Below, in pieces: positions 1,186 through 33,221 of a DNA stretch of 34,004 nt. Source of the DNA: a virus. How positions within the stretch are numbered: position 1 is the stretch's first letter; each line of letters begins with the position of its first letter. The DNA is taken from IMG/VR virus record IMGVR_UViG_3300010430_006947, positions 1 to 34,004 of that record, one strand, 5' to 3'. The notes below the pieces were generated by a model. It saw only the letters and a program-made list of their open reading frames with translations. It was not told where the DNA came from and ran no database searches. The position numbers and the translations under genes were made by a program.

Positions 1186-3234
1186 ATGCCTACCTATCAC
1201 AACAACATACTATGCACTACACGCGATGAGCTTACAGCTTGCGGAATCTCCGCAAGCTACGTAAATCGTGCACTTGCAGGACAACGCAAGGGTGAAGTAT
1301 ATTGTTGGGAACATCACAAAGAAGGCAAACAAGTGTACATACACTACCACTCTCTTAAAGAAAAGTATCAAATTTTAATCAAAGCCGTTCATTGTAACAA
1401 CCTCGAACCAGAGGTTTACCTGAAGCAACAACAACAGGAAAAGGCAACTGCGGTATTTGAAAACCTTGCTGATCAGGTTTCTCTATTAGTTTCTTCCAAT
1501 CCTGAAGAGATTAAATACCTTACCGAAACAAAGCTTTACACGCCTACAGAAGTACATCAATTGGCACGTGCTGCCGGTTGGCTTCGTTTGATTAATGAAT
1601 ACGACGTTAAAAAGGCTCGTAAACTTGGTTTTAAATCTGTGAACGACTTTAGAGCGGAGGTGTTTAAACGCTGTTTAAACGAGCAGACCGCTAATCCTGC
1701 CCTTATTCGATTTAAAAAGACTCTGATTACCAATGTTCGAACGCTTGTTAAAAATGCAGTAGAGTACAAAAATAACGGTATAACATGCCTAATTCATAAA
1801 GGAGTAGGTAATGTAAACCGTGAGAAAACAGATACTGTAATGCACGCTAAACTGGTTAAACTTGCAAGTGAGCCAGTAAAATACTCTTGGGAAGATGTTG
1901 CATTGATGTACAACGATTGGGCAATATCTAATTCCAAACCACAAATTACTGTATCAACAGTTAAATCCTATTTAAACACTCCTAAAGTTAAAAAGGTGTG
2001 GTTTTACCAACGTCACGGCAAACATGCTGCTGATAACGAGATACAATCTCTTATCAATCGTAAAACGCCAAGTTTCCCGGATGCATTGTGGTCTATCGAT
2101 GGTACAAGCATGCAGCTTTACTATGTCGATAATGATGGTAAAATTAAGTCTGACCTATATGTATATTTCGTTACCGATGCTTGCACAAGTGCAATTATAG
2201 GAGTATCAGTAGCATTTGCCGAGACTTCGGGAATGGTTACCGAAGCTTTACGCAATGCCGTTGATACATACAAATACAAGCCTTATCAACTGCAATACGA
2301 TAACAGTTCTGCCAACGTATCAGTTGCCGTTAAAAATCTAATGACCAACATGAGCCGTGTGCATTTTCCTGCTGAACCATACAAAGGACGTTCAAAATAT
2401 GTTGAAAGCATTATTGGACACTTCCAGCAACGTACATTACGTCACTACTCAAATTTTAAAGGCGGTAACATTAATGTTAAAAGCTTAAACTCTCAAGCCA
2501 ACCCCGAACTATTGGCATGGCTCCGGAAGAATCCGGAATCATTACCTGATCGTAATGGTGTTATTGAAATGTTACACGATGCAGTGGCAAAATGGAATGC
2601 TCGTGGTGAAAAGCGCGATAGTTACGGTCGTTTTGTAGGAGCAAGTAAAATTGATCGCTACACTACTATTCAGCACGAACAGCGTGCAGAGTTGAATTAT
2701 TTCGACCGCATGAGCATGTTTATGGTTGAGCAGCGAGTGCCTTACACTTATGGCACTAATGGTATTGTTGTAGATGTGAAAGGCTACGATCATCATTTCA
2801 TAGTGCCTGACGGCGATAATGTTGGTGACTTCATGTTTGCTAACGATAACCTGGGCTTAAAATTCAAGATCAAAATAGACCGTGATAATCCGGGCATGAT
2901 AGCACTATATCGTGACGGTGTGTTTATCGACTTTGCATACAACAAAGAACGCTATGCCGCTTGTGTGGTAGATTCTAAGCCGGGCGAAACTGCTAAGCGA
3001 GTTAGATTCAAAGAAAAGCAAGTTGAATGGGGCGAAGAATACTCCAGACGAGAACTTGAAAAGCAAATGGCTGAACTAGGCGAACTACAAGCAACCGGAA
3101 CTGAAGGTTTTGGGTGGTTCGATACCTCTAAATACAATAACAACATTCGTGAGGCAGCATTAGAAGATGCTCAGAATGGTATGGGTGACGGATTAACGGA
3201 TAAACAGCGCAGGATTTTGAAAATCGGAAAATAA
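1186..3234 (+). CDS. Mu-type DDE transposase (MuA-like)
   Basis: A 682-aa protein (Mu A is 663 aa) that would cut and join the phage ends during integration and replicative transposition. The N-terminus (residues 8-60: TRDELTACGISASYVNRAL...) resembles the small DNA-binding domain of MuA-type proteins. The catalytic core of the RNase H fold is visible: D305 in LWSIDGTSMQ, D372 in LQYDNSSAN and E407 in KYVESIIGHFQQR. The spacing of 67 and 35 residues is close to that of MuA. A Mu-type beta-barrel region and a basic C-terminus that could contact the ATPase follow. It lies directly behind the Ner-like gene and ahead of the MuB-like ATPase. A family A motif sits inside it at 1663-1679. Confidence 0.93.
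   Translation: MPTYHNNILCTTRDELTACGISASYVNRALAGQRKGEVYCWEHHKEGKQVYIHYHSLKEKYQILIKAVHCNNLEPEVYLKQQQQEKATAVFENLADQVSLLVSSNPEEIKYLTETKLYTPTEVHQLARAAGWLRLINEYDVKKARKLGFKSVNDFRAEVFKRCLNEQTANPALIRFKKTLITNVRTLVKNAVEYKNNGITCLIHKGVGNVNREKTDTVMHAKLVKLASEPVKYSWEDVALMYNDWAISNSKPQITVSTVKSYLNTPKVKKVWFYQRHGKHAADNEIQSLINRKTPSFPDALWSIDGTSMQLYYVDNDGKIKSDLYVYFVTDACTSAIIGVSVAFAETSGMVTEALRNAVDTYKYKPYQLQYDNSSANVSVAVKNLMTNMSRVHFPAEPYKGRSKYVESIIGHFQQRTLRHYSNFKGGNINVKSLNSQANPELLAWLRKNPESLPDRNGVIEMLHDAVAKWNARGEKRDSYGRFVGASKIDRYTTIQHEQRAELNYFDRMSMFMVEQRVPYTYGTNGIVVDVKGYDHHFIVPDGDNVGDFMFANDNLGLKFKIKIDRDNPGMIALYRDGVFIDFAYNKERYAACVVDSKPGETAKRVRFKEKQVEWGEEYSRRELEKQMAELGELQATGTEGFGWFDTSKYNNNIREAALEDAQNGMGDGLTDKQRRILKIGK
1663..1679 (+). 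promoter_or_regulatory. Family A 17-bp motif inside the transposase gene
   Basis: TTTAAACGCTGTTTAAA fits the symmetric consensus TTTAAAYRNYRTTTAAA. This copy lies within coding sequence (codons read F-K-R-C-L-N) and deviates from the usual A at centre position 2. One of eight exact matches in the window. Confidence 0.4.
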
Positions 3235-3238
3235 AAAA

Positions 3239-3266
3239 GGCGCACAGCTAACCACAGCTATGCGCC
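3239..3266 (+). other. RNA hairpin between transposase and ATPase genes
   Basis: GGCGCACAGCT (3239-3249) pairs with AGCTATGCGCC (3256-3266) with one C/A mismatch and a 6-nt loop. No U tract follows, so it is not a standard terminator. It may be a processing, stability or attenuation element that sets the ratio of transposase to ATPase (inference). Confidence 0.5.
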
Positions 3267-3283
3267 ATTACCACTATCAATAA

Positions 3284-3300
3284 TAGTAATAACAATCAAA
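3284..3300 (+). repeat. 17-nt leader repeat, copy 1
   Basis: TAGTAATAACAATCAAA occurs here, 8 nt before the ATG of the MuB-like gene, and again at 6791-6807 running into the ATG of the RecA-fold ATPase. Both copies follow a CCACT a few bases upstream. It may be a shared translation-initiation leader for two ATPase genes. Confidence 0.45.
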
Positions 3301-3308
3301 GCAAAAGT

Positions 3309-4244
3309 ATGAAAAAGTACAGCTTAGAACAAAAAAAAGACCTACGTAATAAAATTATTACGTTACAAGAAGCTTCAGGACTGTCAGGTAACAACTTTGC
3401 AACACAGCGTCTTGGATTCTCTAACGGCTCTAAATTTAGCCATATCCGTAACAATTGGGACAGAAACGGAATGGTTGGGAACGACACTTGGGAAGCCGTA
3501 GAAAAGTACATCGAGAAAAACGAAGGTTACAAAGGTGTAGCTACTGCCAATCTTCAAAAAGTGTGGCAAACATGTGAGCGTGCTTATGCTCTTAAAAAGC
3601 CTATGGCTGTTGTTGGTGAAGGTGGTATGGGGAAAACCTTTGCCGTTGAGAAATACAAAGAATACATCGAGGCACAGCAACGCTTTCAGGTGGTTCATTT
3701 CGATGCTTCTGAAACTAAAACCACTAAACAATTTCTTGTTGGCTTACTAGAATCTTTGGATATCTATAAGCCCGGAACCATTGCCGCTCAGCTTCGCATG
3801 CTTCGCGAATATGTAATTAAAAAGGACATGCTTTTAATTATTGATGAAGTAAGCAGCCTGAAGAATCACCACGTGGTAATTATTAAAGATGTTATGACCG
3901 CTCTTAAAGACAAATGCGGCATCGTATTTACTGGCACTCCTTACTTTATCAATAACCTAAACAAAGGCGCAATTAAAGACCGCCATTTGTTCTCTGAAAC
4001 ACGCGACCGTTTATTCATGCTACCTGAGCAACTGGAGAAGCCAACATCAGCTGAAGCCTTGGAAATATTCAAAGCTAACGGTGTAACCGATCCTGAAGTA
4101 CTTGAAATTGTTATGGGTAAAAAGCCTGAATTCAAAATGCACTCTTGGTTGGCAAAACAAAGCTACCGTGGTATTAAAGACTGTTTGGATATGCTTGCCA
4201 TGTCTGAAATGCCAGCTATCGATTTTAACAATATCCAATTGTAA
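3309..4244 (+). CDS. MuB-like AAA+ ATPase, transposition target selector
   Basis: A 311-aa protein (Mu B is 312 aa). Residues 1-70 form an N-terminal HTH-like region. Walker A is GEGGMGKT (103-110), Walker B is LLIIDE (175-180), and IVFTGTP (205-211) is a sensor-1 segment as in the AAA_22 (MuB/TniB/IstB-like) group. By family, it binds target DNA with ATP, recruits the transposase and stimulates strand transfer. It follows the transposase with a 74-nt gap that holds a hairpin and a repeated leader, so its translation may be set separately. The family is firm; the exact role is assumed from Mu. Confidence 0.9.
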   Translation: MKKYSLEQKKDLRNKIITLQEASGLSGNNFATQRLGFSNGSKFSHIRNNWDRNGMVGNDTWEAVEKYIEKNEGYKGVATANLQKVWQTCERAYALKKPMAVVGEGGMGKTFAVEKYKEYIEAQQRFQVVHFDASETKTTKQFLVGLLESLDIYKPGTIAAQLRMLREYVIKKDMLLIIDEVSSLKNHHVVIIKDVMTALKDKCGIVFTGTPYFINNLNKGAIKDRHLFSETRDRLFMLPEQLEKPTSAEALEIFKANGVTDPEVLEIVMGKKPEFKMHSWLAKQSYRGIKDCLDMLAMSEMPAIDFNNIQL

Positions 4245-4249
4245 TTGAT

Positions 4250-4429: not shown

Positions 4430-4440
4430 ATATTTTAATA

Positions 4441-5094: not shown

Positions 5095-5102
5095 TCAACA
5101 CT

Positions 5103-5124
5103 GGCGCGCGATTCTTCGCGTGCC
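5103..5124 (+). other. GC-rich RNA hairpin in early operon
   Basis: GGCGCGCGA (5103-5111) pairs with TCGCGTGCC (5116-5124) through 9 bp including one G-U, closing a TTCT tetraloop. It stands out in an AT-rich 45-nt gap and has no U tract, so it is more likely a processing or stability element than a terminator. Confidence 0.55.
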
Positions 5125-5139
5125 ACTAAAACTATCCCT

Positions 5140-5343: not shown

Positions 5344-5353
5344 AATCAATAGA

Positions 5354-5640: not shown

Positions 5641-5667
5641 ATAGGAACAACCTTAAAATTCTAACTA

Positions 5668-5684
5668 TTTAAACACTGTTTAAA
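5668..5684 (+). promoter_or_regulatory. Family A 17-bp motif upstream of a start codon
   Basis: TTTAAACACTGTTTAAA is a perfect odd palindrome, and one base separates it from the ATG at 5686. It matches the consensus TTTAAAYRNYRTTTAAA seen eight times. A bound protein here would hide the start region in DNA and could set a transcript boundary in the early operon. Confidence 0.55.
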
Positions 5685-5685
5685 C

Positions 5686-6009
5686 ATGGCTAACATCAAC
5701 TATGAATATGCTACTCAGCTCGAACAGAATGAGCAAAAGTGGGACTTCAGAAAACAAAAGCTTCAGGACGTTGTGGTGTTTTTTACTTGCAACACCTTTC
5801 TCCAGCTTGCCGCTTTCCACATTCAGGAAGAAGCTTACGAACTTCTTTCATTTATCGATAAAGGTGAGCGTAGCGATTATTTCGCCTCCCAAATAGACAG
5901 TTACATGGAGAATTTCGAACAGTTTAAAACAACATTCGAAAGATCTTGCATTGCAGAGGCCTTGGAAAAGTTTGCAAACAAAGTAAGTAATCAACTTAAA
6001 GTTAAATAA
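5686..6009 (+). CDS. Hypothetical early protein behind a family A motif
   Basis: A 107-aa acidic and aromatic-rich, probably all-helical protein (MANINYEYATQLEQNEQKWDFRKQKL...). There is no signal peptide or known motif. The ATG at 5686 directly follows the palindromic 17-bp motif, suggesting separate control from the genes upstream. It ends 1 nt before the next start. No function is recognised. Confidence 0.55.
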   Translation: MANINYEYATQLEQNEQKWDFRKQKLQDVVVFFTCNTFLQLAAFHIQEEAYELLSFIDKGERSDYFASQIDSYMENFEQFKTTFERSCIAEALEKFANKVSNQLKVK

Positions 6010-6010
6010 T

Positions 6011-7775: not shown

Positions 7776-8654
7776 ATGTATAGACCAACAATGAAATCAA
7801 AGTGTAGCGGTGGAGGCTTTTCTGATTTAGGTTTTTCATTGGCAGGGATTGAAATTATTCAATCCCTTGAGATTGATTTGAATTGTGTTAAGACGCTTTC
7901 AGCGAATTTCAATCATAAGATACTACACACTGATATTCGAAACGAAACAGTTCTTTCTCAAGAAAAATCAGATATTATAGCAGCAACTTATCCATGTACT
8001 AAATATTCCACTATTGCGGATATCCATGGCACAAGAACTGGCGATGATTTGTTTTTACATGTATTTCGTCACATTGCAATTGAACAGCCTGAAATGTACA
8101 TTATTGAGAACGTTCCGGGAATGAAGAAATTTCCTGTAGTAATGGAAGCCATGACAAAGCTTCCCAATTATTACATTAACGTTTTCTGCCCACTGGATGC
8201 TTTGAACTGGTTACCTCAGAAAAGAGAAAGGTTGATACTGATTGGCACAAAGAGAAGGTTTAGTATTGCTCCGCCAACCAGTACAAAAAGAATTCTTCTT
8301 TCTGATATCATAGACGAAATTCCTGATATGAAAGTGCCTGATTACGTTGTGTCAAGGATAAACGGTAAATACAGAGACAAGCCAATAGTAAGCGATCCAG
8401 CGGATAAAGATGCTTACGCTCCAACCTGTGTAGCTCATTATTCAAAAGACAGAGGAACAAGATTGGTAGTAGACAAATCTCATCCTTTGGGAGTTCGACC
8501 TTATTCAGTACGTGAATGGGCAAGACTACAAGGTATTCCAGATTCTTATATTTTGCCAGTTTCAGACAGTGAAGCATATAAACAAATAGGAAATGGTGTT
8601 CCGGTACACATGGCTGAATGGATTGGACGCGAAGCAATAAAATATTTTAATTAA
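7776..8654 (+). CDS. C5-cytosine DNA methyltransferase
   Basis: A 292-aa protein that would methylate cytosine at C5 using SAM. Motif I is SGGGFSDLGF (11-20). Motif IV is YPCTKYST with the catalytic Cys at residue 74; the usual PCQ is PCT here. Motif VI is IIENVPGM (109-116), motif VIII is LPQKRERLILIG, motif IX lies in RPYSVREWARLQG and motif X is YKQIGNGVPV near the end. The target-recognition region between VIII and IX is short. No restriction endonuclease is nearby, so it is probably an orphan anti-restriction enzyme. The first ATG (7776) is used; an ATG 5 codons later is an alternative. Confidence 0.9.
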   Translation: MYRPTMKSKCSGGGFSDLGFSLAGIEIIQSLEIDLNCVKTLSANFNHKILHTDIRNETVLSQEKSDIIAATYPCTKYSTIADIHGTRTGDDLFLHVFRHIAIEQPEMYIIENVPGMKKFPVVMEAMTKLPNYYINVFCPLDALNWLPQKRERLILIGTKRRFSIAPPTSTKRILLSDIIDEIPDMKVPDYVVSRINGKYRDKPIVSDPADKDAYAPTCVAHYSKDRGTRLVVDKSHPLGVRPYSVREWARLQGIPDSYILPVSDSEAYKQIGNGVPVHMAEWIGREAIKYFN

Positions 8655-9383: not shown

Positions 9384-9971
9384 ATGAAACAATTCTTTTT
9401 AATTGCTGCAATTCTACTGGTAAGCCTGATCAGCGTGGCTCAATACGATGCAACAACCAATATCCCTAACAAGAAAATAAGCAACTTATACGGTGAAACC
9501 GTTACTGTTGTTGAGCTAAACGAGCTTTATTCAGACAAGCAAACCAAAATTACCAACCCGGAAATAATTGGCAGGCAGTACACATTTGTAAAAGCTGAGC
9601 GAGACAGCAAACGCCCACAAATTTGGGTAGAACTGAGCAATAATGAAGAAACAATTTATTACCGTTTAACCGGCACGAATATGCAGCACCCACCAATAAT
9701 GGTAAACGCTTATTTTGAGAAACAAAAGCAGCTGTACCATAACAAAACGCTCCAGCTTAAAATGGATAACGAGTACACCACCACGTCCGGACAAAGCAAA
9801 ATGTACAACACCAAGCAGCTATTTACTTGTGCCGACATTAAACTGCTTAAACAAGGCACTGAGCTTGTACCATCCTACGTACTCACAACAGCCAGCGATA
9901 CCATAAACGTACCGTTTACCAGCTTCGAAAACAATCGTTCTAACACTATCGACCGCTTTATTAAGCAATGA
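9384..9971 (+). CDS. Exported protein, likely moron gene
   Basis: A 195-aa protein with a clear Sec signal peptide (MKQFFLIAAILLVSLISVAQ), with likely cleavage at or near A19-Q20. The rest is beta-rich with repeated YT/YF patterns and no Cys after the signal, so it is not a lipoprotein. The ATG at 9384 fits the signal peptide; a longer frame from 9294 overlaps the terminator. It sits between two terminators (9316-9343 and 9995-10018). A weak -7-like TACTTTTA at 9359-9366 could be its own promoter. Independent transcription and export suggest lysogenic conversion or exclusion (inference). No family is recognised. Confidence 0.7.
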   Translation: MKQFFLIAAILLVSLISVAQYDATTNIPNKKISNLYGETVTVVELNELYSDKQTKITNPEIIGRQYTFVKAERDSKRPQIWVELSNNEETIYYRLTGTNMQHPPIMVNAYFEKQKQLYHNKTLQLKMDNEYTTTSGQSKMYNTKQLFTCADIKLLKQGTELVPSYVLTTASDTINVPFTSFENNRSNTIDRFIKQ

Positions 9972-9988
9972 TTTAAACAGCATTTAAA
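9972..9988 (+). promoter_or_regulatory. Family A 17-bp motif after the moron-like gene
   Basis: TTTAAACAGCATTTAAA begins at the base after the stop codon of the exported-protein gene and ends 6 nt before the terminator hairpin. No gene starts downstream on this strand, so this copy does not support a purely translational role for the motif. Confidence 0.45.
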
Positions 9989-9994
9989 CGAACA

Positions 9995-10024: not shown

Positions 10025-10897
10025 TTAACTAATTGTGCTATTCCACTCCGGAACCTCACCGGCAACACTCACATTTTTAAACAACATGATATCAGTGTAA
10101 CCGGCATTGTGATTTACTTTCACCTTTATTTCCTCTTTGGTTGAATTGTGGAAAGGATTAATGGCCGCTAAATTTGTCTCCAGCCATTCACAAAGCTCCA
10201 GTATGCTGCTTTTGTCAGAAGTAAAATAAACGTAGCTATTTTCCTTCAGTACCTTTAATACATCCAAGTAATCAGCCAAACGCCAATAGTTGTTGTAAGT
10301 TCCCTGCTCGGTACTCAAGTAAGGAGGATCTACTATAAAAACCACGCCCGGCTGATTGCGATACTTATTAAACAACTCTTTGTAATCGTTCTTTACAATG
10401 TGTAAACCTTCCAAATAGCCGGTGCAATTGTAATTACTTTTGCGTACACAATTGTACATGGTTTGCTTGCTGAAACCTTCTAAACTGGTAGCGTAATTCA
10501 TACTGAAGAGTAAAGAACTGGAGAGCGTAATATAATCCACAAAGCCATGCTTTTGCTCTTGTTCCTTCAGGTAGCTAATTATTTTTGCCTTTATTCCTGG
10601 ACTAAGCTTCTTATCTTCCGGGCAAGCTTTCACCATTTCCCGGATTGCTTCCAACATGCCATTGGTATTTTCTACATTGATAAGCCGCAAATGGTAGTCG
10701 TCGAAATCATTATAAACTACCATGGCATTCGGTCGTGTATGTTTGGTTGTGTGCGACAATAGACCAGAGCCGCCAAATAAATCAACAAATATTTTTGCCT
10801 CTGGAAACTCCTCTAATGCACTTTTATACAACTTTATAAATCTTCGCTTTTGCCCCATAAATGGCAAAGGCGCACTTGTGTAAATCTTTTCTCTCAT
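10025..10897 (-). CDS. N6-adenine DNA methyltransferase, D12 class
   Basis: A 290-aa Dam-type enzyme. LPFMGQKRRFI (11-21) matches the N-terminal PxxGxK-type motif of the D12 class. VDLFGGSGLLS (38-48) is the SAM-binding motif I, and VDPPYLS (189-195) is the catalytic DPPY. It would methylate adenine in duplex DNA; the target sequence cannot be read from the protein. There is no partner endonuclease, so it is likely protective or regulatory. It is the last gene of the long minus-strand late cluster, separated from the tail gene by 177 nt of strongly folded leader. In Mu the DNA-modification gene mom is also at the end of late transcription, by unrelated chemistry. Confidence 0.9.
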   Translation of the reverse strand: MREKIYTSAPLPFMGQKRRFIKLYKSALEEFPEAKIFVDLFGGSGLLSHTTKHTRPNAMVVYNDFDDYHLRLINVENTNGMLEAIREMVKACPEDKKLSPGIKAKIISYLKEQEQKHGFVDYITLSSSLLFSMNYATSLEGFSKQTMYNCVRKSNYNCTGYLEGLHIVKNDYKELFNKYRNQPGVVFIVDPPYLSTEQGTYNNYWRLADYLDVLKVLKENSYVYFTSDKSSILELCEWLETNLAAINPFHNSTKEEIKVKVNHNAGYTDIMLFKNVSVAGEVPEWNSTIS

Positions 10898-15788: not shown

Positions 15789-16067
15789 TTATTCAAATTC
15801 TTCAAAAAACTCTTCACTAAACAAACGGTCGTATTCTTCAGTCAATTCCGGTGATGCCGTTTCGGGCTTAATGCCTTTGCCTTTATAGTATCGTACCATA
15901 TCAGCACTAACAATTTCAGGAATCTCAATGGTCTGTCCCGGCTCCAATGTATCGGTAATTGCAATGCCGTTTGCCTTTGCAATTTCATAAGCCGCACGAG
16001 CTAAACCTGCTTTCTGAATAGCTACGTCGAATAAACTTTGCTTTCTACTTACCTTCACACTTGCCAT
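15789..16067 (-). CDS. LysM-domain tail protein
   Basis: A 92-aa protein. Residues 8-50 (KQSLFDVAIQKAGLARAAYEIAKANGIAITDTLEPGQTIEIP) form one LysM-like fold: a beta strand, two helices and the closing 'L.pGq.i.IP'. The tail is acidic (EEFFEEFE). Similar small LysM proteins in contractile phages help join tube, hub or baseplate, and peptidoglycan binding is another option. It is the first gene after the 66-bp control-rich gap at 16068-16133, so it may begin a separately regulated baseplate segment. Confidence 0.7.
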   Translation of the reverse strand: MASVKVSRKQSLFDVAIQKAGLARAAYEIAKANGIAITDTLEPGQTIEIPEIVSADMVRYYKGKGIKPETASPELTEEYDRLFSEEFFEEFE

Positions 16068-16075
16068 AATTGCCG

Positions 16076-16092
16076 TTTAAATGGTGTTTAAA
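16076..16092 (-). promoter_or_regulatory. Family A 17-bp motif before the LysM gene
   Basis: In minus orientation it reads TTTAAACACCATTTAAA and ends 8 nt before the ATG at 16067. A family B operator-like site lies 42 bp away, measured centre to centre (16118-16134). This is the only gap inside the tail cluster that carries both motif types. Confidence 0.55.
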
Positions 16093-16117
16093 TTAAATTA
16101 TCTATCCGTTTGCGACC

Positions 16118-17101: not shown

Positions 17102-17521
17102 TTAAAAATTTGAATATTTTCGACCATCAAAACGTAAGACTTGCCAACGATTACCAGACTCTTTAAAACTTACATGCACCCAATCAGGCTCCATATCATT
17201 ACCCTTTTCCCAAATCAGCTGATCAAAAGGCAACATATCTCTTATAATATGGAAAGCTTTTGCATTATCGCGACAAACAATATCAACCGCTTGTCCTTTC
17301 GTATGCTGACTGGTTGCTGCACCTCCTATTTTAGCATTCACAGAAAGCGAACGAAAACCGCTTGTTACTTGAATAGGCATACCATAAGCATCGCGCAAAG
17401 GCTGTAGTACATTTTCAACAAGCTGCTTTAAATTCTCAACCTGATCAGCATTTGGGACATTAGAAAGCCCAGTGTTGGTAGTTGTTAACTCTTTTAATGT
17501 GAAATTTTCTGATAACTTCAT
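17102..17521 (-). CDS. M15-family peptidase endolysin
   Basis: A 139-aa peptidase of the M15/VanY-like type (Peptidase_M15_3). Zinc ligands are H73 and D80 in SQHTKGQAVDI and H116 in DWVHVSF. The N-terminal ENFTLKELT and VTSGFRS segments also match the family. It should cut peptide cross-links in peptidoglycan and lacks a signal peptide, so it depends on the adjacent holin. Its start overlaps the stop of the preceding gene by 1 nt. Confidence 0.88.
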   Translation of the reverse strand: MKLSENFTLKELTTTNTGLSNVPNADQVENLKQLVENVLQPLRDAYGMPIQVTSGFRSLSVNAKIGGAATSQHTKGQAVDIVCRDNAKAFHIIRDMLPFDQLIWEKGNDMEPDWVHVSFKESGNRWQVLRFDGRKYSNF

Positions 17522-17874: not shown

Positions 17875-18390
17875 TCAGTGCGTTATTTTGTCGTTTTCAA
17901 TTTCCTCCAGCTCTATTTTTTTGCCTGTCATTGCGCTTTCGTAGGCTTGTTTGCCCATGGCTCCATTTGCAGCTGTACCAGCACCAATAGAACTAAAAGC
18001 ATTTGGCAAAGCTGAATGAATAGCCTCCACGTAATCCTTAATGCTTTCAAGGTTGGTAACAATCTGTTTACCGATTGTTAAGCCTCCATTTTCGCCACCA
18101 TTGTATTGAATCAGCTCCACTTTATCAGCAAAAAGCATAAAGGCAGTGGCTTCATCATTTTCCACAATGGCAATTAAACAATCCGTTCCTACAACTGGCT
18201 TAACCACCGCTGAATCAATCCCCAACAACACATCAAAAAACTCAAGACCTTCGCCGTCGCTTGCGTCCATGGTTTGTTCTTCCCAATTCACTTTGTCAGC
18301 CGTTACCCAACGAATGGTAGCTTTCATTGTGCCGTTTAAATGTTGTTTAAACAGCTGCCCAAAATTGTCAAGTTCGCCTTGTAAATTCAT
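17875..18390 (-). CDS. Baseplate spike protein, gpV/gp45-like
   Basis: A 171-aa protein. Residues 24-95 (KATIRWVTADKVNWEEQTMDASDGEGLEFFDVLLG...) look like an OB-type beta barrel with following strands, and the C-terminal Gly/Ala-rich part may form the spike tip. In Mu the gene after the gp44 hub is the gp45 spike, and this gene occupies that place, overlapping the hub gene by 4 nt. A family A motif lies within its codons 14-19. Confidence 0.55.
   Translation of the reverse strand: MNLQGELDNFGQLFKQHLNGTMKATIRWVTADKVNWEEQTMDASDGEGLEFFDVLLGIDSAVVKPVVGTDCLIAIVENDEATAFMLFADKVELIQYNGGENGGLTIGKQIVTNLESIKDYVEAIHSALPNAFSSIGAGTAANGAMGKQAYESAMTGKKIELEEIENDKITH
18335..18351 (-). promoter_or_regulatory. 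Family A 17-bp motif inside the spike-like gene
   Basis: In minus orientation it reads TTTAAACAACATTTAAA, in frame as F-K-Q-H-L-N, near the start of the gene (about 40 nt from the ATG). It fits all positions of the TTTAAAYRNYRTTTAAA consensus. Confidence 0.4.
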
Positions 18391-22012: not shown

Positions 22013-22223
22013 TACTGTCTATGATTTCAGCAAGTGCCGCAATAACAGCGGCTTTCATATTCAAATGATTGAGTTTGTTGATGTGCAAATATTCTGCGTA
22101 GAGCTTGCACCACTCTTTGTCTTTAAGAGTATCCGGGTCGATGCCGTATTCTTTACGGATTACGGCATCGGCTTCCCGGATAAAATCCCCTTCCTCTATT
22201 TTAAAACTCTCTACGCTTTTGAT
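21984..22223 (-). CDS. -1 frame extension of the tail chaperone (T part)
   Basis: This 79-codon frame has no start codon near its beginning and is open from just before the stop of the chaperone gene to a TGA at 21984. It reads IKSVESFKIEEGDFIREADA... and has good helical composition. Reached by a -1 slip at 22223-22229, it would give a fusion of about 300 aa, equivalent to lambda gpGT or Mu gp41/gp42-type products, between tube and tape measure genes. An internal ATG would give only about 24 residues. It bridges what would otherwise be a 198-nt gap. Confidence 0.75.
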   Translation of the reverse strand: MKSVESFKIEEGDFIREADAVIRKEYGIDPDTLKDKEWCKLYAEYLHINKLNHLNMKAAVIAALAEIIDSNGDNNAVDT

Positions 22224-22885
22224 AAAAAACTTCTAGCTGGAGATATCATTCGGCGCAATTGAGCAACCACACCCATGAAAACAATACCATCTTCCAGCAT
22301 TTCCAAGTCTCCTTTAATCACAAGGTTTTTAACTGCCTTTTCTGAGAATTCATCCACTTTACCTTTTTCGGCTAATGGTAGTAGCATCTTGATTAAACCT
22401 CTATCCGGGCGTTTCACAATGAACTGATATTGCTCAGCCTTTTCAATTTCCTTACCTGTGTACTTACTTAATTCTACAGCGATTTTACTTTTATCTTTAT
22501 CATCCCTGAAGTCTGCTAATTGTTCAAGTGGTTTTAATCGATCTTTAAGCTCTAATTCTGTATTCTCAATAATTTCGACATCAATACCAAGTATGCGCAA
22601 ATTAGCCCTGTCCTTTGATGTTAATTCGTCAATGTCATAAACAGCAGGCTCTACCACTACGGTAATCAACTTAATCCGTTTATACTTCAGCTTCAATTCT
22701 TCAATTAGTTCAGGAGTAATATTTGCACTTACAATAATAGGAGCAGCCATTGCCACATAAGCATTATCATGCATCAACTGAGAAACTCTTTCTGCGGCAA
22801 ATTCCACGTGTACAGGTTCAATCGCTTGAACGGTAAGAATGGTTGCAAAAAGGGCAATAAGCCCGAAAATGATCTTTGTTTTCAT
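22211..22885 (-). CDS. Tail assembly chaperone (G part) with an odd hydrophobic N-terminus
   Basis: A 224-aa protein. Residues 150-224 (YQFIVKRPDRGLIKMLLPLAEKG...LVIKGDLEMLEDGIVFMGVV) follow the pattern of phage tail chaperones. Residues 46-75 (MAAPIIVSANITPELIEELKLKYKRIKLITV) also fit the usual start of such proteins. The first 21 residues look like a Sec signal peptide (MKTKIIFGLIALFATILTVQA), which is unexpected; M46 (22750) is an alternative start. The gene lies between tube and tape measure and ends just after a T TTT TTA slippery site. It should coat the tape measure during tail assembly. Confidence 0.7.
   Translation of the reverse strand: MKTKIIFGLIALFATILTVQAIEPVHVEFAAERVSQLMHDNAYVAMAAPIIVSANITPELIEELKLKYKRIKLITVVVEPAVYDIDELTSKDRANLRILGIDVEIIENTELELKDRLKPLEQLADFRDDKDKSKIAVELSKYTGKEIEKAEQYQFIVKRPDRGLIKMLLPLAEKGKVDEFSEKAVKNLVIKGDLEMLEDGIVFMGVVAQLRRMISPARSFLSKA
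22223..22229 (-). other. Programmed -1 ribosomal frameshift site, T TTT TTA
   Basis: In the chaperone frame the codons read AGT TTT TTA TCA AAA GCG TAG, so T TTT TTA is a canonical X XXY YYZ heptamer 9 nt before the stop. The -1 frame continues for 79 codons. No obvious downstream pseudoknot was seen by eye. Confidence 0.75.
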
Positions 22886-22898
22886 CTTTCTAAAAGTG

Positions 22899-22915
22899 TT
22901 TAAATGATATTTAAA
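22899..22915 (-). promoter_or_regulatory. Family A 17-bp motif before the tail chaperone gene
   Basis: In minus orientation it reads TTTAAATATCATTTAAA, ending 13 nt before the ATG at 22885 and overlapping the stop codon of the tube gene. This location supports 22885 as a real start for the chaperone gene. Confidence 0.5.
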
Positions 22916-23345
22916 TATTCCAGTTAATTTTCCCTAAAACCAGTAAATCCGATTTGTAGGCAATAGTTTTGTCACCTTGCTTAACGGCAACACCGCGACC
23001 TTTTAATTTGGCTGTAAACACATCCTTAATTTTTAAGCCGTCGTATTCATACTCAACCACAATAGGAAATGGTGCTATTTCGGCAATACTCATTCCCGGA
23101 GGTAAAGAGCGTTGCAAAGCGTTCCACTCTTCTAAATACATAGAAATAGAAGCTTTAGCCTCGTAATTTCCTTCACCGTAACCAATTGGATATGCTCCAG
23201 CACCTTTTACAACCTCAACATCAATCGTATCGTTGTAGTCCAATTCATTAATGGCTTCCAAATCGCGTCCAAGCATGTTGACAGTAATGGAATTCCAACC
23301 TGCCATTTTCCCGAACTTGTTAATTATACTACTTGCTTTTGCCAT
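22911..23345 (-). CDS. Tail tube protein
   Basis: A 144-aa protein. Features such as 'GRDLEAINELDYNDTIDVEVVKGAGAYPIGYGEGNYEAKASISMYLEEWNAL' and the beta-rich C-terminal end (KSDLLVLGKINWNI) match tube proteins of contractile phages, where a Gly-rich 'G.G.y...as' turn follows an early strand. It follows the sheath gene by 5 nt, the universal order in myophages. It would stack as hexamers to form the DNA channel. Confidence 0.75.
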   Translation of the reverse strand: MAKASSIINKFGKMAGWNSITVNMLGRDLEAINELDYNDTIDVEVVKGAGAYPIGYGEGNYEAKASISMYLEEWNALQRSLPPGMSIAEIAPFPIVVEYEYDGLKIKDVFTAKLKGRGVAVKQGDKTIAYKSDLLVLGKINWNI

Positions 23346-27247: not shown

Positions 27248-27266
27248 AATTTCTTGAATTGTGAGT

Positions 27267-27278
27267 TACAAAGTTTTG
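27267..27278 (-). promoter_or_regulatory. Candidate leftward late promoter -7 element
   Basis: In minus orientation it reads CAAAACTTTGTA, 7 of 8 positions of TAnnTTTG at 27269-27276, about 20 nt before the ATG of the protease gene. The rightward candidate at 27411-27421 has nearly the same sequence (CAAACTTTGTA). No clear -33 TTG is seen, as expected if an activator is needed. Confidence 0.4.
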
Positions 27279-27304
27279 TTAAAAGATTTACACTTTGAAA
27301 TCGA

Positions 27305-27321
27305 GTTTTCATATTGTAAAC
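27305..27321. promoter_or_regulatory. Operator-like palindrome, family B, in the divergent late region
   Basis: GTTTTC ATATT GTAAAC has the same 6-5-6 form and the same single deviation as 865-881. It lies about 30 bp behind the leftward -7 element and 90 bp behind the rightward one. A weaker relative, ATTTAC-N5-GAAATC, is at 27286-27302. The 204-bp region otherwise holds AT-rich sequence and a short AAAAAGC/GCTTTTT element near 27378-27392. Confidence 0.55.
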
Positions 27322-27411
27322 ATATCGGCGTACATGTGGCTATTATTCTGATAATCACGAAATATTTATGCTTTATAAAAAGCCGCTTTTTCAATTCGCA
27401 CTATATAAACA

Positions 27412-27419
27412 AACTTTGT
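27412..27419 (+). promoter_or_regulatory. Candidate rightward late promoter -7 element
   Basis: AAACTTTG matches 7 of 8 positions of TAnnTTTG, 32 nt before the ATG of the terminase small subunit gene. No proper -33 TTG was found at the right distance. Its flanks (CAAACTTTGTA) mirror the leftward candidate. Confidence 0.4.
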
Positions 27420-27451
27420 AGTGTATTAATGTAAAATAATGTGTATCGACA

Positions 27452-28001: not shown

Positions 28002-29543
28002 ATGGCAACATCAAGAGCGAAAGCAGATAAAATAAAGGCGGAAAAGTACCTGAAGAAACTCGACATTGTTAGAAAAACTAACGATGTAAACCCTTTTGAA
28101 ACGAAAACTGAGCAACAGGAACGAATTACCAGAGCGCAAAACGATGTTGAGTATTTCTTAAAGACTTACTTGCCACATTATGCTTTATCAGATTCAGCTG
28201 ATTTTCAAACTGAGTTTTCTGAAATGGTAGCCGCTGATCCTTTATTTATTGGTTTTGCTGAATGGTTTCGTGGTGCTGCCAAATCTGTTCGATGCAATAT
28301 CATTAATCCTCTTTGGTTGTGGATTCGTGGTGAAGATGTTTTTATGTGTTTGCTTTCTGATAGTAAAGAGCGTGCCCAGGAACTACTCGCAGATGTTCAG
28401 GCAGAATTAGAGGGTAATCCGCTTTTAATTCATGATTTTGGCGCACAAAGATGTGAGGGAGATTGGGAAATAGGAAATTTCAAAACTATTGACCAACGTT
28501 TTATTGGAATGGCTTTTGGTATCAAAAAGAAAGTACGTGGTGTAAGAGTAAAGCACCGCCGTCCTAACCTTTGGGTAATTGATGACTTGGAAACGCCGGA
28601 TACCATTTCCAATCATAAACGCATGCGCAAGCAAGCCGACCAAATTGAGCGCGATGTAATTCCTACGATGACTGGAGATATTCGCCGTGTTGTTTATGCA
28701 AACAATAGATTTGCAAGGGTAATGACACAAACTATATTACAGGAACGTCACCCGGATTGGGTAGTCCATCATATCAAAGCTTACAACAAAGTAACCTATA
28801 AGCCAACATGGAATTATTACACTGCCGACTTTTATCGAAAGATGGAAAAGGCTATGGGAATTACAGCAGCTTATTCCGAGTACTTGCAAGAAGCTAAAAT
28901 AGAGGGTGCAAACTTTTCCGAAGATCAAATACAATGGGCTAAACTTCCTCCTATGGAAGAGTTTAAAATGATCATTTCACATTGGGATATTGCCTATACC
29001 GACAACGAGACGAGTGACTACAACGCCATAAAAGTTTGGGGTTTGCATGGTCGAAACTTTTGGTTGATCGATTGCTATGTGAAACAATCAAAAATGAAAC
29101 AAGCAGCCAATTGGAATTGCCATTACAAAAGACAATTACAACGGGGTGTTAATTACATTGGACAATTTGAAAGTCAGTTTTGGAATGGTGAGGTGGAGCG
29201 TTCAATCAGTGAAGCTGAAGATGAAAATAACATCGACTTGAATTTAATGGAAATAAGCACTCCAATGTCTAAGAAAATTCAACGCATGATAACCATGCAG
29301 CCATATTACCAAAACAACCGCATTTTCTATAACGAAGCATTAAAAAGTCATTCTGACACTCAGGTTGGTATTATGCAGCTTTGTGCTGTAGAAGAGGGAA
29401 TGACAGAACATGACGATAGTCCCGATGCAGATCAACAGGCTATTTCTGCTTTAGATAAATATTGTACTCCCGGACGTAGACGCAACACCGGAGAAAAGAG
29501 TTTTAAAACGGGTAAGATGAAATCAAAATATAATATGCCATGA
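28002..29543 (+). CDS. Terminase large subunit (Mu gp28-like)
   Basis: A 513-aa packaging motor and nuclease. The Walker A-like motif is RGAAKS (90-95), Walker B is LWVIDD (190-195) followed by LETPD, and a probable coupling segment is VVYANNRF (230-237). The RNase H-like nuclease begins with HWDIAY (Asp329) and has another acidic site near DDSPDADQQA (about residue 472). It cuts and pumps DNA into the head through the portal encoded two genes later. The stop overlaps the next ATG by 4 nt. Confidence 0.9.
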   Translation: MATSRAKADKIKAEKYLKKLDIVRKTNDVNPFETKTEQQERITRAQNDVEYFLKTYLPHYALSDSADFQTEFSEMVAADPLFIGFAEWFRGAAKSVRCNIINPLWLWIRGEDVFMCLLSDSKERAQELLADVQAELEGNPLLIHDFGAQRCEGDWEIGNFKTIDQRFIGMAFGIKKKVRGVRVKHRRPNLWVIDDLETPDTISNHKRMRKQADQIERDVIPTMTGDIRRVVYANNRFARVMTQTILQERHPDWVVHHIKAYNKVTYKPTWNYYTADFYRKMEKAMGITAAYSEYLQEAKIEGANFSEDQIQWAKLPPMEEFKMIISHWDIAYTDNETSDYNAIKVWGLHGRNFWLIDCYVKQSKMKQAANWNCHYKRQLQRGVNYIGQFESQFWNGEVERSISEAEDENNIDLNLMEISTPMSKKIQRMITMQPYYQNNRIFYNEALKSHSDTQVGIMQLCAVEEGMTEHDDSPDADQQAISALDKYCTPGRRRNTGEKSFKTGKMKSKYNMP

Positions 29544-29980
29544 AGTATCTGGAGAAAGAAGATTTAATCGCAGTAATTCAAGAGCGTTTAATGGGGCAAA
29601 GCCTTGCAACAAGTGCCGATATTAATTTAGACGACAATACAATTCTGGATAACATTGAAGGAAAAGCAATTGATTTTGCCATATCATATATATCCGGTAA
29701 ATACGATACTGAAGTAATTTTTAATGAAGCTACTCCAATTCGTAACGGCGTATTAGTACAAGCCATTGCATGTATTGTGGTTTATCGCTCAGTACGACGC
29801 AATGCAGCTCGTAAAGTTCCGGAGGATTACATACAACTATACAGCGATGCCAAAAAGGACTTGGAAAAGATCCAGAGCGGAGCTATGAACCTCATTAACT
29901 GTCCTAAGTTAACTAACGAAGACGGCACAAGCACAAGTCCGGTTTACGGCAACAATACAAACGATAACTATTTTATTTAA
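29540..29980 (+). CDS. Mu gp36-like (DUF1320) head-tail protein
   Basis: A 146-aa protein. The segments 'AIDFAISYISGKYDTEVIF', 'NGVLVQAIACIVVYRSVRRNAARKVPEDYIQLYSDAKKDLEKIQSGAMNL' are characteristic of gp36-like connector proteins: two helical parts, then '...Y..A...L..i..G...L'. It probably acts as a head completion or adaptor protein. Here it sits between terminase and portal rather than after the capsid gene as in Mu. Confidence 0.8.
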   Translation: MKYLEKEDLIAVIQERLMGQSLATSADINLDDNTILDNIEGKAIDFAISYISGKYDTEVIFNEATPIRNGVLVQAIACIVVYRSVRRNAARKVPEDYIQLYSDAKKDLEKIQSGAMNLINCPKLTNEDGTSTSPVYGNNTNDNYFI

Positions 29981-29992
29981 ACACTATTTAAA
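29976..29992 (+). promoter_or_regulatory. Family A 17-bp motif overlapping the portal start codon
   Basis: TTTAAACACTATTTAAA; its last A is the first base of the ATG at 29992, and its first bases overlap the stop codon region of the gp36-like gene. This is the tightest coupling of the motif to a start codon. Confidence 0.55.
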
Positions 29993-32508
29993 TGGCTAAG
30001 AAAATTGGAATAATCGGACGTATCGGCGATGCAGCTGAACAAGTGATTTTAAGTAGAGTTAAAAACAGCACCCTCTATGGTGAATACCACAAACGCGCTG
30101 AAAAGGGTGCTCCATGGGATCGTGAAAGCACTGCATACAAAAAACAAGAGATAGAAGACTGGATTAGAGGAGTTGCAGCAGCTACTGATCCGGACACACC
30201 TCAACGCGGTTTACTCATGCGGTTTTATCAAAGTTTATTATTAGATCCACACCTTACTTCTGTTATTGATACTCGCATTTCACGTGTTCAGCGCTCTTCT
30301 TATAAGTTGGTAAACGAAAAAGGAGAAGAAAACGAAGAGCTTAAGAAACTGTTGGAGCGTCCATGGCACGACGACCTTATTAAGTTAACGCTTAATAAAA
30401 ACTTCGTAGGAACAACACTGATTGAAATGTTCTGTACAGATCCAGAGACAATGGAACTTGATCGCGTTATTGCAATCCCTCAATCAAATTTTATAGCACA
30501 CCTCGGAATTGTAACAAAAAACGAAGGTGACGAAACCGGCACAAGCTACCGCGAAGGAAAATACAAAGATTACTACGTACAAGTAGGTGAGTCTTTTGAA
30601 TTGGGAATGCTAAATGAATTAGCCATGGTTGTTATTGCTAAAAAGCTTGGTTTAGGTTCATGGATAAGCTATGTTGAAAAGTTTGGAGTACCACCGATTT
30701 TTGCAATTACCGAACGCATGGATACAGGACGTCGTGATGAATTGTTTGATATGTTGCAAAGTTTTCGATCTAACCACTTTGCAGTACTTCAGGGAAACGA
30801 GAAAATTGAAGTTCCAAACAATTACAATGTAGACGCTTACCAATCATTTAAAGCATTAAACGAAGTTAGCAATAGTGAAATTAGCAAGCGTGTTCTTGGT
30901 GGTTCAGCAATGGTTGACGAAAAAAGCTACGTAGGATCTGCTGAAGTTCAGGAGAGAGTTGCACAGGATAGATACGAGGCAGATAAGTTGTTGTACAAAC
31001 ACTATTTTAACACTCAATTTCGTCAACGCTTAGCTAAAATTTCAAGTGTGTACGCTGAATTTGCCACACATACGCTTGTATGGGACAATCAGGAAACACT
31101 TGATATAAACGGCTACATCGAAGCTGTTACTAAGCTTTCAACCGCATTCGATTTTGATGTGGAAGAAATACGCAACCGTACAGGATTGCCTATTACTGGA
31201 ATGAAAATAGTTTCAACTGAGCCAACCAGTCAAAAAAAAAATCCTGACGCAAGTGGAAAAGGACTAGTTTCTCCACAAGCTCAAACGGATATTTACGAAC
31301 TATTTGCAGCAACATGGGACAAGGCAATAGACAGACTAGCAAACGATATCTACGACGGAAAGGTGAAGACTACCGACTTAGATAAAGATTTGGTGTTGAA
31401 GAATTACGCAGCATTTAATAAGGAAGCTAAAAAGGCTTGGGGCAAAGGTTACTATGATGAACCAATTACCCGACAATTCCGGGAGAATCTATTGCAATTT
31501 GCAGGTGCTAAAGCTCACGATTTAATGAAACAACTGGATGGTTTAAACACTGAAAAAACCAAGAAAGAAGATTTTATTAATCAGGCTAAAGCCATTGTAA
31601 ACAAGCACAACGAACAATGGCTAAGCACTGAGACAAAGTTCGCCGGTGATTGTGTAAGCTCTGCCCAGGAATATGCTTCTTATATGGATGATGTTGATAT
31701 TTACCCAAACATGAAGTACCGCACAATGGGTGATGCCGATGTAAGAAGTAGCCATGCAGCTAACGAAGGTTTAATTATTCCTGTTGATGAAATTACAGCA
31801 CTTGCACCATTTGACTATGGTTGTCGCTGTTGGTACGAACAAACCACCGAAGCTCCAACTAGTGGCAAAGCTATTAAGGGTGTGAAGTTCAAAAACAATC
31901 CTTACAAATCCGGGAAGGTATTTAACGATGAACAAAGCTATTTCCTTAACATGGCTGACAAACACCGTAGCATCATTCGCGATAACACTGAGCTAATGAA
32001 ACAACACATGCCATACAGCCAAACCATAATGGTCGATGACCAAACGGTACATGTGAATGATTTTTACGACTTAACCGATGGTACTGCCAATATTAAAGCA
32101 GCTAAGAAACTGGCTGAAGAGCTGGAGCAAGATGTTTACATTTTGCCTCACATCGAAAACAGCGCTAAGCTTCATCACAAGAACCCTGAAATGGCTATCG
32201 GTAAAACAAGTTATACCGCCGATTTAAAAACCTTTAACCCGGACGTGGCTTCCAGCACTCGCAAGTTTATTGCCAACAGTGTAAACACCGCCAACAAACA
32301 AGCATGTAAAGCGGTTGTTTGCGATATCTCAAAAGCTCCTGAAGCTGACTGTCTGAAAATAGCAGCAACCAAGCTAAGAGGCGAATTAAAAGGAACTGGA
32401 AAAGCCAACATTAAAAAGGTTGTTGTCATTAAGGATAACACGGTAATAATGGTTACACGCAAGCAATTGGCTCAAAAGAATTACCAGAAGTATTTCGAAG
32501 TAGAATAA
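29992..32508 (+). CDS. Portal (DUF935) - MuF - nuclease-like domain fusion
   Basis: An 838-aa protein. Residues 1-410 match the Mu gp29 portal type (LLMRFYQSLLLDPHLTSVIDTRISRVQ, then 'GVPPIFAITERMDTGRRDELFDMLQSF'). Residues 430-620 form a MuF/gp30 domain ending in RTMGDADVRSSHAANEGLIIPVDE and DYGCRCWYE. Residues 687-838 are an extra domain: 'AAKKLAEELEQDVYILPH', NPEMAIGK (731-738), TADLKTF (742-748) and KQACKAVVCDIS (769-780). This resembles C-terminal nuclease toxins of MuF and CdiA type, possibly PD-(D/E)xK-like with E733, D744 and K746. Portal and MuF are usually separate genes (29 and 30 in Mu). The toxin-like end may be injected with DNA, or act in the head (inference). Confidence 0.82.
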   Translation: MAKKIGIIGRIGDAAEQVILSRVKNSTLYGEYHKRAEKGAPWDRESTAYKKQEIEDWIRGVAAATDPDTPQRGLLMRFYQSLLLDPHLTSVIDTRISRVQRSSYKLVNEKGEENEELKKLLERPWHDDLIKLTLNKNFVGTTLIEMFCTDPETMELDRVIAIPQSNFIAHLGIVTKNEGDETGTSYREGKYKDYYVQVGESFELGMLNELAMVVIAKKLGLGSWISYVEKFGVPPIFAITERMDTGRRDELFDMLQSFRSNHFAVLQGNEKIEVPNNYNVDAYQSFKALNEVSNSEISKRVLGGSAMVDEKSYVGSAEVQERVAQDRYEADKLLYKHYFNTQFRQRLAKISSVYAEFATHTLVWDNQETLDINGYIEAVTKLSTAFDFDVEEIRNRTGLPITGMKIVSTEPTSQKKNPDASGKGLVSPQAQTDIYELFAATWDKAIDRLANDIYDGKVKTTDLDKDLVLKNYAAFNKEAKKAWGKGYYDEPITRQFRENLLQFAGAKAHDLMKQLDGLNTEKTKKEDFINQAKAIVNKHNEQWLSTETKFAGDCVSSAQEYASYMDDVDIYPNMKYRTMGDADVRSSHAANEGLIIPVDEITALAPFDYGCRCWYEQTTEAPTSGKAIKGVKFKNNPYKSGKVFNDEQSYFLNMADKHRSIIRDNTELMKQHMPYSQTIMVDDQTVHVNDFYDLTDGTANIKAAKKLAEELEQDVYILPHIENSAKLHHKNPEMAIGKTSYTADLKTFNPDVASSTRKFIANSVNTANKQACKAVVCDISKAPEADCLKIAATKLRGELKGTGKANIKKVVVIKDNTVIMVTRKQLAQKNYQKYFEVE

Positions 32509-32514
32509 AATAAC

Positions 32515-32545
32515 AAAAGGTGAATGCCGGAAACATTCACCTTTT
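32515..32545. terminator. Terminator-like hairpin after the portal-MuF gene
   Basis: AAAAGGTGAATG (32515-32526) pairs perfectly with CATTCACCTTTT (32534-32545), a 12-bp stem with a 7-nt loop. The U's are part of the stem and GGG follows, so termination may be partial. It lies in an 86-nt gap and could lower expression of the gpG-like gene. Confidence 0.6.
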
Positions 32546-32594
32546 GGGCTGAGATTGGACTCGTCCGCTCTCACTTACAAATATACAACTTTTT

Positions 32595-33209
32595 ATGGCA
32601 CGTAAAAATAAAGTACCGGAATTTGAAAAGATGGCTAGAGAACTTAAGAAGAATGCCTCACGTTATGCGGCTTCTGAGTCGGTTAAGTTTTTCCGGGAAA
32701 GCTTTGTTAAAGGTGGTTTTACCGATACAAGTTTTGAAAAGTGGACGCAAACTGGCAATCCAATGGCAGGCAAACGAACCATGTACAACAAAGGTCGTTT
32801 AATGCGATCAATCAAAAAGCTTTCAGCTTCGCTTAACAGAGTTGTAGTTGTTGCCGATTCTGAATATGCAGACATTCACAACAAAGGCGGTTACATTGTG
32901 GTTACTGCCCAAATGAAAAAATACTTTTGGTACAAGTATTACAGTTTTGTTGGTGATGTATCAGTAAATAAAAAAGGAGCAACACCACTAAACAAACGTA
33001 ACGTTGGGCTTGGAAAAAAAGCAATGTTTTGCAAAGCCATGGCATTAAAGCCTGTTGGCTCTAAAATAAAAATACCTAAACACCAATTCATGGGTAACAG
33101 CCGAACCATGATGAGAGATTTCGACAAGTGGTTTGGTGACACAATTAAATTTCAAATAGAGAAACAGTGGAATAAGCCCACAATAAATATTGACTTAAAG
33201 AGTGTTTAA
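32595..33209 (+). CDS. Phage virion morphogenesis protein (Mu gpG-like)
   Basis: A 204-aa basic protein. The segments 'SVKFFRESFVKGGFTDTSFEKW', 'GRLMRSIKKLSASLNRVVVVADSEYADIHNKGG' and 'IPKHQFMGNSRTMMRDFDKW' are the classical pattern of virion morphogenesis proteins: 'L..si.......v.....yA..hq.G', then 'iP.R.flg'. In Mu, gpG (gp31) is needed for tail completion and follows gp30. It follows the fused portal-MuF gene here, keeping the Mu order. Confidence 0.85.
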   Translation: MARKNKVPEFEKMARELKKNASRYAASESVKFFRESFVKGGFTDTSFEKWTQTGNPMAGKRTMYNKGRLMRSIKKLSASLNRVVVVADSEYADIHNKGGYIVVTAQMKKYFWYKYYSFVGDVSVNKKGATPLNKRNVGLGKKAMFCKAMALKPVGSKIKIPKHQFMGNSRTMMRDFDKWFGDTIKFQIEKQWNKPTINIDLKSV

Positions 33210-33221
33210 ATACCATTTAAA
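33205..33221 (+). promoter_or_regulatory. Family A 17-bp motif upstream of the gp37-like gene
   Basis: TTTAAATACCATTTAAA overlaps the stop codon of the gpG-like gene and ends 11 nt before the ATG at 33233. Confidence 0.5.

Follow-up and report, generated by a model that had tools for sequence, protein, structure and literature searches.

The virus record IMGVR_UViG_3300010430_006947 (34,004 nucleotides, analyzed over its whole length and referred to here as the window) carries eight copies of a short palindromic sequence in which two TTTAAA boxes are separated by 5 bp. Comparison with other phages showed that its full 19-bp unit, RTTTAAAYRNYRTTTAAAY, is a variant of an element conserved in Mu-like phages, made up of 2 to ca. 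5 boxes of the palindrome RTTYRAAY with a period of ca. 11 bp, dispersed along the genome and located at orthologous places. The computational comparisons firmly establish a phased-box DNA element of Mu-like phages that is conserved and phage-specific. Judging from the predicted genes, the carrier is a Mu-like transposable phage, since both a MuA-type transposase and a MuB-type AAA+ protein are present. A compact sequence conserved across Mu-like phages, located in Mu itself just before B, offers a defined piece of DNA that can be deleted, moved, or bound, and, whatever its binder, it also marks AT-rich Mu-like phages in metagenomes.

The repeated element in the window

The first-pass annotation, made from the letters of the window alone, had listed eight TTTAAA-N5-TTTAAA pairs with centers of the form YRNYR, and all eight were recovered at the same coordinates and obeyed the rule. 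It had described them as a 17-bp motif; the pairs are real, but the motif is longer, a 19-mer that 8/8 copies fit, palindromic in pattern and nearly mirror-symmetric, with its two boxes one helix turn apart. At up to 3 mismatches, this 19-mer had 13 matches in the window versus 2.2 expected. The total number of TTTAAA boxes was 55 (not ca. 45, as counted before), and shuffled windows contained on average only 0.05 (100 shuffles) or 0.066 (500 shuffles) pairs, with a maximum of 2, which bears out the earlier estimate that chance would give far less than one. No TTTAAA pairs were found anywhere in the window at spacings of 0 to 4 and 6 to 23, and the other spacings detected were 24 (two pairs), 27 (one), and 30 (one).

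Start codons adjoin five of the eight copies, with gaps from the 19-mer to the ATG of 0, 7, 12, −2, and 10 nt, while one of the remaining three follows a stop and two lie within genes, as first annotated; stop codons are overlapped by four of the six intergenic sites. Six of the eight centers are noncoding, against a noncoding fraction of 4.9% of the window by our own gene set (binomial p, 3.5e-7). Gaps between copies had a coefficient of variation of 0.34, compared with 0.83 under random placement (P, 0.007), so that the spacing is more even than random; the corresponding P values in the relatives G005, G012, and G002 were 0.03, 0.01, and 0.07, these relatives not being independent. The main divergent promoter regions (873-927 and 27248-27451) contained no site even at 4 mismatches. 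No report of the motif was found in the open-access literature searched, a coverage outside which most subscription papers fall.

Table 1. Sites and genes of the window, with site occupancy among close phages (counts include the window itself; "kept" means at ≤2 mismatches in phages having the gene; ORF, open reading frame)
Feature	Coordinates	Strand	Location or match	Occupancy
Site 1 GTTTAAACGCTGTTTAAAC	1662..1680	.	inside MuA gene, +476 nt; exact 19-mer	13/13 occupied, 11 exact
Weaker MuA-gene site	1959..1977	.	ca. +773 nt; 2 mismatches	≤2 mismatches in 8/13, 0 exact
Site 2 ATTTAAACACTGTTTAAAC	5667..5685	.	ends at ATG of ORF 5686-6009; exact 19-mer
Site 3 ATTTAAACAGCATTTAAAC	9971..9989	.	overlaps stop of ORF ending 9971, between convergent genes; exact	kept in 5/5, 4 exact
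Site 4 GTTTAAATGGTGTTTAAAT	16075..16093	.	7 nt before ORF 15789-16067(-); exact	kept in 8/10, 6 exact
Site 5 GTTTAAATGTTGTTTAAAC	18334..18352	.	inside ORF 17875-18390(-), +38 nt; exact	kept in 10/10 having the gene as labelled, 6 exact
Site 6 GTTTAAATGATATTTAAAT	22898..22916	.	12 nt before ORF 22211-22885(-); exact	kept in 6/8, 3 exact
Site 7 ATTTAAACACTATTTAAAT	29975..29993	.	overlaps stop of 29540-29980 and ATG at 29992; exact	kept in 8/11, 6 exact
Third box near site 8	33193..33211	.	weaker, 2 mismatches; 11-bp register with site 8
Site 8 GTTTAAATACCATTTAAAT	33204..33222	.	10 nt before ATG at 33233; exact	kept in 8/8, 7 exact
MuA-type transposase	1186..3234	+	phrog_310 transposase, E 6.6e-53; rve domain, E 2.5e-8
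MuB-type AAA+ protein, N-terminal helical domain	3309..4244	+	AAA_22, TniB; phrog_296 DNA transposition protein, E 4.4e-25
CI-like repressor	420..872	-	Phage_CI_repr, E 1.1e-10
Ner-like small protein (label of first-pass annotation)	928..1182	+	no Pfam or PHROG match
CGAATCGTGTAAATTT-like repeat pairs in relatives (oriented coordinates)	G001 38/61; G002 1267/1290; G003 462/485; G008 147/170; G012 618/641

Conservation in phages and rarity in host genomes

Relatives, both viral and from host genomes, were found by MuA search. The first-pass annotation had proposed a check for conservation in related phages, and the sites turned out to be kept at orthologous places: pairs were present in all 12 close relatives (2 to 9 per record), with the element occupying matching gene junctions as well as a place within the transposase gene (Table 1). 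Site 2 was left unscored because ORF 5686-6009 has no homologue among the compared records. A three-box arrangement like that at site 8 was seen in G012.

Within the MuA gene, all 13 of 13 phages used identical TTT, AAA, and TTA codons at the site, while the mean codon identity of other invariant MuA leucines was 0.26 (13 columns) and that of the glutamate immediately outside the site was an ordinary 0.46. In G008 and G009, an arginine is replaced by cysteine with the palindrome retained. The frozen codons, together with a palindrome kept despite this replacement, indicate that selection acts on the DNA inside the gene. One of the searches for relatives used the peptide FKRCLNE, which is encoded by the MuA site, so the presence of the site among the relatives it yielded was partly selected, with no effect on codon identity.

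TTTAAA-N5-TTTAAA ranked first among 6-mer dyads in 10 of the 13 core records (all but G003, G004, and G010), and arrays of this core family usually had only two boxes, without additional phased boxes in their flanks (89 arrays). As for the center, positions 9 and 11 were A/C or G/T in 41 of the 57 exact core sites and complementary (A/T or G/C) in 16, although these sites share descent and are perhaps not independent.

The motif is not common host sequence, given that few Bacteroidota genomes match it and that pairs outside the prophage in Marinilabilia fail the YRNYR rule. The exact 19-mer was present in 18/395 Bacteroidota genomes (23 matches), compared with 10 genomes for a reversed control pattern; an equal density in host DNA, the other outcome that the first-pass annotation had thought worth checking, was thus absent. 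Of the 23 matches, four belonged to the Marinilabilia prophage, and another, from G187, lay in a MuA prophage. Among the nine TTTAAA-N5-TTTAAA pairs of Marinilabilia, all five in the prophage had YRNYR centers, as opposed to none of the four elsewhere. A host chromosomal operator was considered and rejected after inspecting the neighborhoods in 11 of the 18 matching genomes, where, apart from the G187 prophage, no common neighboring gene appeared. Isolated host matches included one resembling a terminator hairpin (G070) and one resembling a protein-coding repeat (G211). Separately, an isolated three-box array was observed in a Bacteroidota chromosome (G108:C1:1301758-1301787) beside a gene that we read as mnmE-like, with no recognized phage genes nearby.

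In the wider Mu-like family, the element takes the form of runs of the 8-bp palindrome RTTYRAAY with an 11-bp period. An excess of TTTAAA-N5-TTTAAA (p < 0.01) was detected in 30/37 Mu-like records, namely, 17/20 from Bacteroidota and 13/17 others, 8 of these 17 having been picked for carrying the motif. By comparison, the non-Mu phages lotta8, FPSV-S1, and 6H had no pairs and HP1 and F108 had one each; two of these five controls have late genes in common with the window. The dyad ranked first among palindromic 6-mers in 12 of 15 further records (not in Mu, D108, or B23); 8 of the 15 had been fetched for having the motif, and 4 of the 7 taken by MuA similarity showed it. BalMu-1 of Bacillus had three pairs (p, 8e-6), with the dyad ranked second, and the excess in TCUEAP3 was weak (p, 0.014). 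Against a simple story, no strict pair was found in Hankyphage, Porphyromonas phage006a, Mu, D108, B23, or D3112. Hankyphage has a looser form (three exact and five one-mismatch RTTYRAAY pairs versus ca. 0 expected), phage006a has three one-mismatch pairs, and Mu and D108 each have a single run of three boxes at 11-bp spacing in the interval from A to B (3314-3343 in Mu); B23 (60% G+C) and D3112 (64% G+C) had no pairs. Some gammaproteobacterial records also had a 10-bp spacing (N4 pairs), with five in Pasteurella AFS-2018a, four in G457, and five in G448.

At up to 1 mismatch, RTTYRAAYRNYRTTYRAAY occurred 92 times across 62/63 distant MuA-relative loci (804 kb), at least once in 45 of the 62, while the controls gave 2 occurrences (one shuffle per locus), 6 (12-bp period), and 17 (a looser 10-bp period). 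These distant relatives and the gammaproteobacterial phages have additional boxes at −11 and −22, i.e., a box run, in contrast to the pair of the core family. We also scanned viral contigs starting from the motif, with RTTTAAACRNYATTTAAAY, which gave at least 118 stretches, and examined the 50 loci from the longest records (≥15 kb). Among the matches listed, 24/50 records had at least three sites (≤1 mismatch), and MuA was found in 17 of them, 14 by profile plus the Mu-type G429, G444, and G457. Five more were fragments of 19 to 29 kb with a window-type portal gene (48 to 71% identity), and the last two (G431 and G448) had only a remote portal match. Among the single-site records, counted on the same listed matches, MuA was present in 4/22.

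Candidate readers of the element

The element accompanies the MuB/MuA module, being in excess in Mu-like records and limited to 0 or 1 pairs in non-Mu phages, and all carrier records whose gene content was compared had both MuA and MuB. This is why we favor that module, and the binder is probably a transposition protein encoded by the phage itself. Based on this co-occurrence, we assign a probability of about 0.4 to MuB being the reader and self-marking the function. In this reading, the MuB-type target-capture protein would use its N-terminal, helix-turn-helix-like domain to recognize the boxes, which are spaced by one helical turn along the same DNA face, and would load at the sites and then spread along the phage DNA. 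Occupied in this way every few kilobases, phage DNA would be disfavored as a transposition target and marked as self. At gene starts, including that of its own gene in some phages, MuB may also affect transcription.

Along these lines, a similar MuB N-terminal domain was found in Mu and in Pasteurella, Vibrio, Shewanella, Bacillus, and Bacteroidota phages, and the MuB gene has a run of boxes immediately upstream in Mu, D108, Shewanella, two Vibrio, and three Pasteurellaceae-like phages. In the wider Bacteroidota loci, such a run preceded MuB in 8/64, versus 14/1520 random windows. The AlphaFold model of the MuB-type protein of the window (pLDDT, a predicted confidence score, of 89.9) had the MuB filament 8xvb as its top structural match (E, 1.2e-8). 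D3112, whose B protein lacks the N-terminal domain, also lacks boxes, a weak test at 64% G+C. The even spacing of the sites in the window counts in support as well. In Mu, according to the available text of PMC2837660, strong MuB binding was seen at each of the seven internal regions that were probed, MuA being confined to the ends, and its authors suggest that MuB polymerization is helped by specific Mu sequences.

Several points weigh against MuB. The available text of PMC7350765 calls it nonspecific and describes genome immunity as only mildly breached without it. Mu is coated by MuB throughout but contains a single clear run of three boxes. From one carrier group to another, the N-terminal domain of MuB is variable, and it is similar to the one in Hankyphage, which has the looser box; B23 has this domain with no pair excess (a weak test at 60% G+C). 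In the core family, 0/12 phages had a site in the 100 bp before MuB. A sequence search with the 79-residue N terminus of the window MuB found no solved structure, and the putative helix-turn-helix label is our own reading of an alignment and a model. The broader idea that phased palindromic boxes, conserved even in genes, might form a dispersed self-identity code in Mu-like phages of several phyla, seeding MuB and supplying the still-missing sequence basis of Mu-type genome immunity against self-integration, is put forward only tentatively.

It is rather doubtful that the boxes are read instead by a host protein conserved across phyla, either DNA gyrase, through wrapping like that at the strong gyrase site and phased TTTAAA bends, or a nucleoid protein, either of which would organize the prophage into a domain for end synapsis. 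The presence of the same box in phages of very different hosts would suit such a protein, but host chromosomes hold almost no sites. For gyrase in particular, the Shewanella, two Vibrio, and Pasteurellaceae-like G426 phages carry a site between the head-morphogenesis/G and protease I genes, the junction at which the annotated gyrase cut site of Mu (17879) lies, and the right arm of the strong gyrase site of Mu holds DNA-bending repeat motifs (PMC10052514). However, the usual two boxes of the core family, without extra phased boxes in the flanks of its 89 arrays, do not resemble such an arm, and the Mu model has a single central site, whereas the window has eight, evenly spread. Three-box composites with spacings of 11 and ca. 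20 bp were observed at this junction in G426 (13719-13757), G444 (18561), G429 (10588), G408 (16750), and Shewanella MuM16-2 (17103-17140).

Recognition by the N-terminal domain of MuA, in the manner in which MuA of Mu recognizes the internal enhancer, with the boxes acting as dispersed enhancers or as MuA posts giving target immunity, is unlikely. MuA is found in every carrier record compared, and its predicted N terminus in the window weakly matches the DNA-binding domains of the Mu transposase and Mu repressor (1tns and 1qpm; target TM, 0.57 and 0.56; E, 1.3 and 2.4). Nevertheless, the repressors of G426 and G444 share the MuA-type N-terminal sequence, and their repressor-ner regions show GAAACT repeats and no 11-bp box pair; this pair was likewise absent from the repressor-ner regions of G429, G457, and Mu. 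These operator regions without box pairs lowered the MuA N-terminal domain as a candidate binder. In addition, chromatin immunoprecipitation did not find MuA at internal Mu regions, as far as the available text of PMC2837660 goes, and transposase-end-like repeats of the core family differ in sequence from the box: the left-end tandem repeats of G001, G002, G003, G008, and G012 are CGAATC.TG.AAATT-like. These CGAATCGTGTAAATTT-like pairs, 23 bp apart near left phage ends and with a variable first base (CGTGC, CCTGT), are probably transposase end sites, and no left-end-type pair of this kind was found near the ends of the window.

Less probable still is another conserved phage regulator using the sites as operators or transcription roadblocks. 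Its attraction lies in the start codons touched by 5/8 sites and the stops overlapped by 4/6 intergenic ones, but the window proteins (ORFs of ≥35 amino acids) present in all 13 carriers were MuA, MuB, the small terminase, and structural proteins, with repressors included only by loose single linkage.

The first-pass annotation had favored an operator of a dimeric DNA-binding protein or another phage-wide control element, with two CI-like proteins and a Ner-like protein as binders. The sequence-specific, phage-wide character of the sites was borne out; the proposed binders were not, being mostly not common to the carriers. Only the protein encoded at 420-872 matched CI, and the left-most ORF, 1-384(-), had no Pfam or PHROG match and no homologue in the 19 compared records. 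Iterative profile searches found homologues of the CI-like protein in 4/19 other records and of the Ner-like one in 2/19. In looser single-linkage BLAST, the repressor of the Porphyromonas phage and those of all 13 carriers formed one group, within which the N-terminal halves mostly differ between carriers. We consider stoperator-like sites of the immunity repressor improbable: dispersed sites in short intergenic gaps do resemble stoperators (PMC9283540), but the N-terminal domains of the repressors vary among carriers while the box is constant, and the divergent promoter regions are free of sites. A repressor operator was rejected on these two grounds, with the loose BLAST grouping pointing the other way. 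Probable true repressor operators were seen in Pasteurellaceae-like Mu phages, as GAAACT/AGTTTC repeats in the repressor-ner regions of G426 (30120-30300) and G444 (33870-34060).

Finally, an RNA hairpin or an effect of chance or composition is very improbable, since the two boxes could pair as RNA but positions 8 and 12 are C and A (nonpairing) in 19/57 exact core sites, an absence of covariation on which the hairpin was rejected, and only 0.05 pairs per window are expected.

Carrier gene content and comparison with known systems

Because the window begins and stops at boundaries between genes, it does not include the real ends of the phage. Besides the genes listed in Table 1, it encodes two DNA methyltransferases (7776-8654 and 10025-10897), a C5 enzyme (PF00145; E, 5.6e-38) and a D12-class N6-adenine enzyme (PF02086; E, 7.7e-7), and a homologue of the latter was present in several carriers.

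Among known systems, the Mu operator/transposition enhancer is likewise an element of Mu-like phages, made up of clustered binding sites for a winged-helix domain. It differs from the element described here in sitting between the repressor and ner genes, where Mu, G426, and G444 have no box pair. The strong gyrase site is, like our element, a Mu-phage element with phased bends, and an array stands at the corresponding junction in several gammaproteobacterial relatives; however, it is single and central, with a long phased arm, while the element in the window consists of many short arrays. The stoperators of L5-type mycobacteriophages resemble the window sites in having many genome-wide copies, mostly in short intergenic gaps. 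Each of them is an asymmetric 13-mer recognized by the immunity repressor; they occur in promoters too and are oriented with transcription (PMC9283540), whereas the window site is palindromic, is missing from the main divergent regions, and does not track the repressor. Mu genome immunity, i.e., the coating of Mu DNA by MuB, shares with the proposed role of the element its phage-wide extent, its tie to MuB, and the proposal of specific Mu sequences; the sequences named in the available text of PMC2837660 are the gyrase site and the ends, and no repeated box is among them.

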